From NCBI RefSeq assembly GCF_003966655.1, contig NZ_AP018795.1:558001-622000 (forward strand): DNA of 64,000 nt. The letters are read 5' to 3'. The notes under the pieces are model-generated. The model did not search any database. It was given only the letters and a program-made list of their open reading frames with translations, and was not told the origin of the DNA. The stretch comes from Acidithiobacillus ferridurans. GTDB lineage: Bacteria; Pseudomonadota; Gammaproteobacteria; Acidithiobacillales; Acidithiobacillaceae. A program made the position numbers and the translations under genes. This document shows, in pieces, positions 30,835 through 35,167 of the stretch; positions within the stretch are counted from its first letter, which is position 1; every line of letters starts with the position of its first letter.

Positions 30835-31049
30835 GACGTTCCTTTCTGACAGATTAAGATGGTCAGTATGCGCCCAACCCATGGTTTAGAACAAGTCCAA
30901 ACCATCTGTTGCGCCTGCTACAGAGCAGGGTTGTCGGCAGCCAGATCCGCACCGCCATCCACCCGCCGACCGGGACAAAATTTCGTCGTGAAATGATACC
31001 GCTGGTTCGGTTATCCACATCTTTTGCACCATTTGCGCACCATATTATG

Positions 31050-31065
31050 CACAAGATGTAGTTGA
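31050..31065 (+). promoter_or_regulatory. NrdR box 1 upstream of nrdA
   Basis: GCACAAGATGTAGTTG matches the NrdR consensus acaCwAtATaTwGtgt at most positions, including the central CAAxAT and TwGt. It overlaps the -35 hexamer. NrdR is the nucleotide-sensing repressor of ribonucleotide reductase genes; its gene is not in this window. Confidence 0.75.
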
Positions 31066-31090
31066 CACTGACAGAAACGAGTCTATATTT
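31063..31090 (+). promoter_or_regulatory. Sigma-70-type promoter for nrdAB
   Basis: TTGACA at 31063-31068 and TATATT at 31085-31090, separated by 16 bases. A start point near 31097 would give a leader of about 60 bases before nrdA. Both hexamers are covered by NrdR boxes, which fits repression by occlusion. Confidence 0.75.
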
Positions 31091-31096
31091 AGTATT
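31081..31096 (+). promoter_or_regulatory. NrdR box 2 upstream of nrdA
   Basis: AGTCTATATTTAGTAT contains the core CTATAT-TTAGT of the NrdR consensus. It starts exactly 31 bases after box 1, the three-helical-turn spacing typical of paired NrdR boxes. It covers the -10 hexamer. Confidence 0.78.
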
Positions 31097-31158
31097 CAGG
31101 TGCCACGCTTTCCGCTATCGCTGCTTGTCCTCACCACCGCCCTGATCTGGAGTCGCCC

Positions 31159-34011
31159 ATGTCTAAACCTACCACCCAGACCGTCATCGGCAACCCTGCC
31201 TACGACCCTTCCGAAGCCAGCCGTTACAAAGTCATTCGTCGCAACAACGCGATGGTCAATTTTGACGCCAGCAAGATTCATATCGCCATGACGAAGGCTT
31301 TCCTGGCCGTGGAGGGCGGCAGCGGGGCGGCAAGCGCGCGCGTTCGTGACCTCGTCAGCCGCCTGACAGAACAGGTGATCGAAGCACTGAAACGGCGCCA
31401 GCCGGGGGGCGGCACCTTTCACATCGAAGACATTCAGGATCAGGTGGAACTGGCGCTCATGCGTGCCGGCGAACACGAAGTCGCCAGGGCCTATGTGCTT
31501 TATCGCGAGGAGCGCGCGCGGGAACGCCGCCAGCAAGCTGCGGAGGAAACCCCAGCCGATGTCCCGGTTATTCAGGTCAGCTATCCGAATGGCAGCCGAC
31601 GGGTTCTGGACATGGTACGATTGCGCGCCGTTATCGAAGAAGCCTGCAGTGGCCTAGGCACCGCCGTGTCGATAGACGCCATTCTCGGCAACACCGTCAA
31701 AAATCTCTACGACGGTATCAGTGAGGATGAGCTGTTTCAGGCCCCCATTCTGGCCAGCCGGGTGCTGATCGAGCGCGATCCCGCCTACGCCTACGTCTCG
31801 GCACGTCTGCTTCTCGACCGCGTGCGCTGGGAAGTACTCGGTGAAGCCGCGACGCAGGCAGAGATGACCGCACGTTATCCCCAGTATTTCCGCGACTATC
31901 TGCAAACCGGCATCCAGAATGAGCTGATCGACCCGCGCCTGGGGCAGTATGATCTGGAACGCATCACCGCCGCGCTCCGGCCGGAGCGGGACCTGGACTT
32001 CCAGTATCTGGGCATGCAGATTCTGTATGATCGCTACTTTTTGCATGTACGGGAGCGTCGCATCGAGTTGCCGCAAGCCTTCTGGATGCGGGTGGCCATG
32101 GGTCTGGCGATGAATGAAGTCGACCGCGAAACCCACGCCATCGCCTTTTACGAAGTGCTGTCGAGCTTCGACTTCGTCAGTTCGACACCCACCTTATTCA
32201 ATGCCGGAACCTTGCGCCCGCAGTTGTCCAGTTGCTTCCTGACCACGGTGGGTGACGACCTGGATGACATCTACGAGGCCATCAAAGAAAACGCCATGCT
32301 CTCCAAGTTCAGCGGCGGGCTGGGGAACGACTGGACGCCGGTGCGTGCGCTGGGCTCCTTCATCAAAGGCACCAATGGCAAGTCGCAGGGCGTCGTTCCC
32401 TTCCTCAAGGTGGTCAACGACACGGCGGTGGCGGTCAATCAGGGCGGCAAGCGCAAAGGCGCGGTCTGCGCCTATCTGGAAACCTGGCACATGGATATCG
32501 AGGAATTCCTCGAACTGCGCAAGAATACCGGCGACGACCGCCGCCGCACCCACGATATGAATACCGCCAACTGGATCCCCGATCTCTTCATGGAGCGCGT
32601 GGAAAGCAACGCGATGTGGACACTGTTCAGCCCCAATGAAACACCGGATTTGCATGACCTTACCGGGGCGGCGTTCCGGGAGCGCTATGAGCACTATGAG
32701 CACATGGCAGATGCGGGCACCATCGGGTTGTTCAAGCGCATACCAGCCGTTCATCTCTGGCGCAAAATGCTGACCATGCTCTTCGAGACCGGCCATCCCT
32801 GGATCACCTTCAAGGACCCCTGCAACCTGCGCAGCCCGCAGCAGCACGTCGGAGTAGTGCACAGTTCCAACCTCTGCACCGAAATCACCCTCAATACCAA
32901 CGCCAAAGAAATTGCCGTCTGTAACCTGGGGTCCGTCAACCTGGTAGCCCATTTGCGGGCAGTGGCGGACGCCGACTCCGGCGCATTGCGCGAGAACAGC
33001 GCACCGGAAGAACTGCTCGCCATGATGGATGGGGAAAAGTTGCATCACACCATCCGCGTTGCCATGCGGATGCTGGATAATGTCATCGACATGAACTACT
33101 ACGCCGTTGCCAAGGCACGTAATAGTAATCTGCGGCACCGGCCGGTGGGCCTGGGGCTGATGGGCTTCTCCGATGCCTTGTTACAGATGCGGATTCCTTA
33201 CGCTTCGGCAGCAGCCCTCGCCTTTGCCGACATCAGCCAGGAAGTCATTTCCTACCATGCCATCGATGCATCGGCCGATCTGGCCCGGGAACGGGGCAGT
33301 TATCAGAGCTTCCCAGGGTCCCTGTGGAGTCAGGGTATCCTGCCCATCGACAGCATCGAACGGCTCGCGGCCAGCCGTGAGCACGGCGTGGACGTGGACC
33401 GCAGCCAGCATCTGGACTGGGCAACACTGCGTGGCAAGGTACAGGGCGGCATGCGCAACAGCAATTGCCTGGCCATTGCGCCCACCGCTACCATCTCCAA
33501 TATTGTCGGTGTCAGCCAGGGTATTGAACCGATTTACCAGAACCTCTATGTCAAATCCAACCTGTCCGGCGAGTTTACGGTGGTGAACAGCTATCTGGTC
33601 CACGACCTGAAACGCCTGGAACTCTGGGATGAGGTCATGGTCAATGATTTGAAATACTTCGATGGCTCGGTCATGCCCGTAGACCGCATTCCGGCGAGCA
33701 TCAAGCCCCTATATGCCAACGCCTTTGAAATCGATCCGGAATGGCTGGTGGAAGCGGCGGCGCGGCGGCAGAAATGGCTGGATCAGGCCCAGAGTCTCAA
33801 CCTCTATTTCGGCCAGCCTTCCGGCAAAAAAATCGACGAGATCTACCGGCTGGCCTGGAAACGCGGCTTGAAGACCACCTACTACCTGCGTTCACTGAGC
33901 GCCACGGCAGCCGAAAAATCGACGGTGCAGACGGGCACCCTCAATGCTGTTGTATCGGGTCAACCCAAAGCCTGTGCGATCGATGATCCGACTTGTGAGG
34001 CCTGTCAGTGA
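31159..34011 (+). CDS. nrdA: Ribonucleoside-diphosphate reductase alpha subunit, class Ia, two ATP cones
   Basis: 950 residues, longer than the E. coli protein because two ATP-cone allosteric domains are stacked at the N terminus (about 22-120 and 130-225), the layout known from Pseudomonas aeruginosa NrdA. The catalytic barrel has active-site cysteines in [25 protein letters not shown] (radical cysteine and general-base glutamate) and [10 protein letters not shown]. The C-terminal tail ends DDPTCEACQ, the mobile redox pair. A promoter with two NrdR boxes lies upstream; nrdB begins 31 bases after the stop. Confidence 0.97.
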
Positions 34012-34042
34012 TACGGGAATTGTTAAAAATAAGGAAAGCATC

Positions 34043-35167
34043 ATGTTAAGTTTTGAAGAAAATCTTCGTAAAGAATCCATTCTCAATGGACCGTTAGCGA
34101 TGCGTCCGGAGCATGTTGGTGGCATCGAGGAGACTGACATGAACAGTTTTGAACGGGTGCGCGCTGAGGACAAGCGCATCATTAACGGCCACGCCGATGT
34201 CAACCAACTGGTGCCCTTCAAATACCAGTGGGCCTGGGACAAATACCTCGCCGCCTGCGCCAACCACTGGATGCCGCAGGAAATTCAGATGTCCAGGGAC
34301 ATCGCCCTGTGGAAAGACCCCAAGGGGCTGACCGAGGACGAGCGGCGTATCGTGAAGCGCAATCTGGGCTTTTTTGTGACGGCGGACAGTCTGGCGGCCA
34401 ACAACATCGTGCTGGGCACGTATCGTCATATCACCGCCCCGGAATGCCGCCAGTATATGCTGCGCCAAGCCTTTGAAGAGGCCATTCATACCCACGCATA
34501 TCAGTACATTGTCGAATCCATCGGCCTCGATGAGGGCGAGATATTCAACATGTACCACGAGGTACCCTCGGTACGGAATAAGGATCAGTTTCTGATGCCT
34601 TTTATCGACATTCTGGCGGACCCCCATTTCAAAACCGGCACCCTGGAAAATGATCAGAAATTATTACGCTCGCTGATCGTATTTGCGGCGATCATGGAAG
34701 GCACCTTTTTCTATGTGGGTTTCAGCCAGATTTTGGCGATGGGCCGGCAGAACAAAATGGTGGGCGCGGCGGAGCAGTATCAATACATCCTGCGCGATGA
34801 ATCCATGCACTGCAATTTCGGTATCGATATGGCCAACCAGATCAAGGTGGAAAATCCGCAGCTCTGGACAGAGGCTTTCCAGCAGGAAATCATCGACCTG
34901 ATCCGCCGCGGCGTAGAACTGGAATGTGCTTACGCCGACGATACTATGCCCCGCGGCGTGCTTGGCCTGAATGCACCGGTCTTCAGGGAATACGTCAAAT
35001 ATATCGGCAATCGCCGTCTGGTGCAGCTCGGTTTGCCGCAACAGTATCCGGGCGTACAGAATCCCTTCCCGTGGATGAGCGAAATGATGGATCTCAAGAA
35101 AGAGAAGAACTTTTTTGAGACGCGGGTCACCGAGTATCAGACCGGCGGGGCGCTGAGCTGGGAATAA
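34043..35167 (+). CDS. nrdB: Ribonucleoside-diphosphate reductase beta subunit, class Ia
   Basis: 374 residues from the ATG at 34043, preceded by AAGGA; the frame is open 33 codons further but that part overlaps nrdA. It is the ferritin-like radical-generating subunit. Metal ligands and the radical tyrosine are visible: D115 ([10 protein letters not shown]), E146, H149 and Y153 in [13 protein letters not shown], plus later glutamates and a histidine in [11 protein letters not shown]. The tyrosine is present, so a tyrosyl radical is expected. Co-transcribed with nrdA. Confidence 0.97.

Follow-up and report, generated by a model that had tools for sequence, protein, structure and literature searches.

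In Escherichia coli, the nrdAB operon for class I ribonucleotide reductase is known to be under joint control by DnaA and NrdR. DnaA activates or represses the operon depending on its nucleotide and its level (PMC8203912; papers are cited throughout by PubMed Central number, and for excerpts rather than in full), and it prefers double boxes 2–3 base pairs (bp) apart, one of which lies at nrdA (PMC11317965). The same source places DnaA at nrdD, too, by chromatin immunoprecipitation and sequencing. NrdR reads pairs of boxes, for which the measured linker optimum is 15–17 bp (PMC12051234). In Salmonella, DnaA and NrdR boxes at nrdAB are marked together in one figure legend (PMC2892513), and in Pseudomonas aeruginosa nrdAB has two NrdR boxes, shown to function by mutation of box 2, with no mention of DnaA in the main-text excerpts of that paper (PMC4409342). 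Here we describe the nrdAB control region of Acidithiobacillus ferridurans, contained in a 64,000-nucleotide stretch of contig NZ_AP018795.1 (positions 558,001–622,000; 'the window'). Judging from its motifs and their conservation, this region is probably read by both regulators, NrdR and DnaA.

A first-pass annotation of the window found the NrdR boxes but overlooked the DnaA boxes, TTATCCACA and TTATGCACA, which are the only TTATNCACA sites on either strand of the 64 kb. Counted from the perfect box, DnaA-like matches of 9, 6, 5 and 8 out of 9 stand at offsets 0, 11, 22 and 34, the last running into NrdR box 1; at the double-box spacing of E. coli (PMC11317965), 2 bp after the perfect box, the match is only 6 of 9. 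The E. coli operon is similar in several ways. It, too, encodes a class I reductase and has another DnaA box after TTATCCACA, with NrdR boxes 31–32 bp apart, and in strain MG1655 TTATCCACA lies 37 bp before the first of these, box 0. It differs in that the starts of its two DnaA boxes are 12 bp apart (704 and 716 of locus L041), and that no listed NrdR box overlaps the second, whereas here a DnaA box overlaps box 1. It differs also in that box 0 lies on the -10 hexamer, with the working NrdR pair downstream (PMC12176259), whereas here TTGACA follows box 1 and the -10 lies in box 2. The E. coli nrdHIEF and nrdDG operators have two boxes and a 15-bp linker (PMC12176259), as here, but they serve class Ib and class III operons, and the likeness drawn here is one of layout, as it is for the two boxes of P. 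aeruginosa.

That both proteins act at nrdAB was known already; the part that seems new is the register that their sites share across genera, of which we found no report in the excerpts of open-access literature searched, nor any paper there on the DnaA boxes of nrdA promoters or on the comparative genomics of both regulators. In all 14 loci of the window's genus, and in loci L031, L113 and L127, the perfect DnaA box starts 38 bp before box 1; in L104, L120, L138, L140 and L143 the distance is 48 bp. It is 6 bp in L018 and L019, and both 6 and 51 bp in L023, while the other ten loci of the family and order (L002–L028) have no TTATNCACA within 400 bp. The distances of 38 and 48 bp, seen in the first loci, were taken as a hypothesis and tested on 100 further genera of the class, the best-scoring among the matches listed rather than a random sample. 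An NrdR pair lies upstream of nrdA in 82 of these (score at least 16, which 0.6% of 500 shuffles reach), and in 33 of the 82 a coding-strand TTATCCACA begins 9–75 bp before box 1; on the opposite strand this is true of 1. The 33 distances cluster near 27, 37–38, 47–48 and 58 bp (individually 24, 26, 27 three times, 36, 37 twice, 38 nine times, 45, 47 eight times, 48 three times, 49, 51, and 58 twice).

These clusters are about a helical turn apart. Vector strength peaks at a period of 10.5 bp with a value of 0.82, which none of 20,000 uniform random sets attains; when each of the 26 families contributes a single locus, the value is about 0.79, unattained by any of 5000 sets in each of five draws. 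Measured instead to the start of the nrdA match, as a control, the DnaA boxes show no register (0.06 at 10.5 bp). Imperfect boxes (7 or 8 of 9), present in 21 of the 49 loci that have no perfect one, fall in the same phase (R 0.49, p = 0.007). Both the shuffled and the uniform nulls ignore phylogeny, and sampling one locus per family lessens the effect of kinship but does not remove it. Around the perfect box of the 33 loci, mean DnaA-box matches rise to 4.76 at -11, 5.58 at +11 and 4.82 at +22, compared with 1.3–3.3 elsewhere among the listed offsets; the mean at +34, 3.97, is partly forced by the NrdR box. By this measure the DnaA-like sites form an array with a pitch of about 11 bp.

Whether the array runs into the NrdR operator is harder to judge, because DnaA and NrdR motifs both contain CACA and their overlap at box 1 is thus partly forced. 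When the four free bases are considered alone, at least three of four match TTAT before box 1 in 24 of the 82 loci, and before box 2 in 1; the same comparison at offsets 1 to 12 gives 2 to 14 loci. AT-rich sequence precedes box 1, and so we regard the overlap as supported, but not strongly.

The NrdR pair by itself is unremarkable, one more addition to the NrdR regulon. Both of its cores agree without mismatch with CWANATNTWG, which we take to be the core of the NrdR box, and their starts are 31 bp apart. The window holds four matches to this core, and the nrdAB pair is the only one with a spacing of 30–34. Its pair score, 23, exceeds every score from 1000 dinucleotide shuffles of the 400 bp upstream (maximum 17). 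The pair is retained, with scores of at least 20, in all 27 loci of the family and order set (the window's own included; 14 of its genus and 13 others), at a spacing of 31 in the 14 and of 31–33 in the 13. In five of these loci, from a neighbouring genus (L020–L022, L024 and L025), box 1 is a perfect NrdR palindrome, the spacing is 33, and TTATNCACA is absent. Among the 100 further genera, nrdR was found in 93 genomes, and the pair occurs in 80 of these versus 2 of the 7 without nrdR (p = 0.002); just two families account for four of the seven, however, which therefore do not represent seven independent losses.

The first-pass annotation thus holds up in its essentials: two NrdR boxes with starts 31 apart, upstream of what domain assignments confirm to be nrdA and nrdB. 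Their 15-bp linker lies within the NrdR optimum (PMC12051234), and this supports its interpretation. It had the boxes covering both hexamers of the promoter (TTGACA / 16 bp / TATATT, 11 of 12 hexamer positions matched in the promoter scan); box 2 does span the whole -10, but box 1 overlaps only the TTG of the -35. Transcription of nrdA would be expected to start at about 31096–31098. An nrdR gene, without which the proposed repression would fall, is present, its product having a zinc ribbon and an ATP-cone. Of the further box pairs that the annotation suggested seeking, one came to light: of the two targets examined in this genome, nrdA and nrdD, the latter also has a pair, spaced 32. A genome-wide search with the 16-mer consensus (up to three mismatches) returned five places, and its backward control gave at least as many. 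Repression of nrdAB by nucleotide-loaded NrdR, as E. coli work would suggest (PMC12176259), accords with the nrdR gene, the nrdAB genes, the linker and the conserved pair; as a model it is incomplete, for it passes over the DnaA boxes, one of which overlaps box 1.

Several observations weigh against a region read by both proteins. No perfect DnaA box lies in range in 49 of the 82 pair-bearing loci, or in most loci of two neighbouring genera (g2 and g4), and TTATNCACA was not found upstream of the A. ferridurans nrdD. If only the 12 unique distances are used, vector strength falls to 0.69, which 128 of 20,000 random sets reach. On the NrdR side, the boxes are only moderate matches to the 16-mer consensus, ACACWATATATWGTGT (11 of 16 positions for box 1 and 12 for box 2), and a search for it with up to three mismatches misses both, in the window and in the genome; they are recognized by core, spacing and conservation, rather than by a near-perfect consensus. 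Two genomes (G046 and G094) have the pair and no detected nrdR. And in E. coli the boxes that lie on the nrdAB promoter, 0 and 1, bind NrdR 40–50 times more weakly than do the sites of the other two operons (PMC12176259).

The alternative that survives these comparisons best, and to which we give slightly less than an even chance, is that the register reflects the geometry of DnaA and RNA polymerase, with DnaA as activator or blocker, and that NrdR shares it only incidentally, through the position of its boxes on the promoter. The boxes coincide in part with the hexamers, and both are spaced about three turns apart, such that sites in register with box 1 are in register with the -10 as well; for this reason register cannot separate contact between DnaA and NrdR from contact between DnaA and polymerase. 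At E. coli nrdAB, DnaA stabilizes or excludes polymerase, according to review excerpts (PMC8203912). Promoters occur in two layouts relative to box 1—by loose text matches, TTGA follows it in 23 of the 82 loci, and CTTG or TTGA only precedes it in 40—and these have similar DnaA distances, which speaks against the alternative but does not decide, because the shift in layout is itself about three turns.

We consider it unlikely that NrdR is the sole regulator and that the DnaA boxes are incidental, or merely titrate DnaA. The many loci with no perfect box in range would suit such an arrangement, but the strand bias of 33 to 1, the 10.5-bp register of perfect and imperfect boxes alike, the presence of both of the window's TTATNCACA sites at this one promoter, and the binding and regulation of E. 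coli nrdA by DnaA (PMC11317965, PMC8203912) all argue otherwise. Very improbable, finally, is that the two boxes are no working NrdR site, resembling E. coli boxes 0 and 1 or mimicking a site because of the -10: their consensus matches are moderate, the TATATT of box 2 doubles as the -10, and the promoter-lying pair of E. coli binds weakly (PMC12176259), but both cores here are intact, the linker measures 15 bp and not 16, the stretch 30951–31170 contains no third box whose core is intact, and the pair is kept in 27 of 27 related loci and goes with nrdR across genera.

Control by both regulators would then work as follows. DnaA would bind TTATCCACA at 31011 and probably also the weak sites that follow at a pitch of about 11 bp, the last of them (TTATGCACA, at 31045) having five bases in common with NrdR box 1. 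With DnaA sites, NrdR boxes and promoter in one helical register, DnaA could act on polymerase, on NrdR, or on both, from the same face of the DNA. NrdR, if it binds here as we infer, would likely repress by occluding the promoter; nucleotides would govern both proteins, and DnaA might either raise or lower expression. The features concerned are collected in the table.

Features of the nrdAB control region and genes (window coordinates)
Feature	Position	Strand	Remarks
DnaA box (perfect)	31011-31019	+	TTATCCACA; its start lies 38 bp ahead of that of NrdR box 1; the window's only perfect one
Weak DnaA-like site	31022-31030	+	TTTTGCACC; 6/9 matches, +11 from perfect box
Very weak DnaA-like site	31033-31041	+	TTGCGCACC; 5/9 matches, +22 from perfect box
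DnaA box	31045-31053	+	TTATGCACA; 8/9 matches; shares five bases with NrdR box 1
NrdR box 1	31049-31064	+	GCACAAGATGTAGTTG; core CAAGATGTAG, 31052-31061
-35 hexamer	31062-31067	+	TTGACA; promoter scan
NrdR box 2	31080-31095	+	AGTCTATATTTAGTAT; core CTATATTTAG, 31083-31092
-10 hexamer	31084-31089	+	TATATT; promoter scan; inside NrdR box 2
nrdA	31159-34011	+	Class I ribonucleotide reductase large subunit, 950 amino acids (aa); N-terminal ATP-cone, both reductase domains
nrdB	34040-35167	+	Class I reductase small subunit, 375 aa from assumed start

The genome, 2.92 Mb in one contig, has a single match to the class I/II reductase barrel family, and encodes in addition a class III nrdD, nrdR, dnaA and hda. 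The first-pass annotation assigned nrdAB to class Ia. NrdB has tyrosine—at what we take to be the radical position—where its closest solved relative, 6y2n, has phenylalanine in the alignment. Its four best solved relatives (6y2n, 2ani, 4d8f and 1syy) are, we believe, class Ic proteins, however, and for this reason 'class I with Tyr' is a safer description than 'class Ia'. The best solved relative of NrdA is 5im3, presumably the P. aeruginosa enzyme. In one relative, a second nrdA-like gene (G004:C1:1757675-1762735) matches residues 6-428 and 558-950 within one open frame of 1687 aa, as though interrupted by an insert, perhaps an intein. A search of the plasmid collection gave no match.

Other peculiarities came to light along the way. 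Next to nrdR, the glyA frame continues in another frame over nrdR (L001:1416-2876, outside the window; 486 aa), which points to a frameshift, whether in the gene itself or in its assembly. The A. ferridurans nrdD is split (L033:1129-3357, also outside the window): one frame holds the barrel, and a second frame, of 68 aa, holds the C-terminal glycyl-radical part, which corresponds to the end of the NRDD model; an NrdG2-type activase comes next. Of 16 nrdD-bearing genomes, 15, this one among them, give two separate matches to NRDD, which in G012 share a single open frame; no such split of NrdD is mentioned in the literature excerpts consulted. The gene divergent from nrdA belongs to the PmbA/TldD family. 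Upstream of it, at 30885-30901, is TTTAGAACAAGTCCAAA, whose core, TAGAACAAGT, recurs in 23 of the 27 family and order loci and which may on that account serve the tldD-ftsH-folP group as an operator or promoter element.

Taken alone, the NrdR pair is an ordinary find, adding Acidithiobacillus nrdAB to a known regulon. The register may mean more. Tentatively, as a possibility that we rate somewhat below even, nrdAB in many gammaproteobacteria may have a composite operator, in which a directional array of DnaA sites, about one per helical turn, is continued in the same register by the NrdR operator, with bases of box 1 sometimes shared. The initiator, DnaA, and the dATP (deoxyadenosine triphosphate) sensor, NrdR, would compete or cooperate there on one face of the DNA and so set the supply of precursors, and selection would keep the register while whole turns were gained or lost. 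How the supply of DNA precursors is matched to the start of replication is still an open matter, and a 2025 review, in the excerpts cited, lists questions on the ties between DnaA and nrdAB expression (PMC11853086); the geometry of the register across genera makes one part of it concrete and testable.
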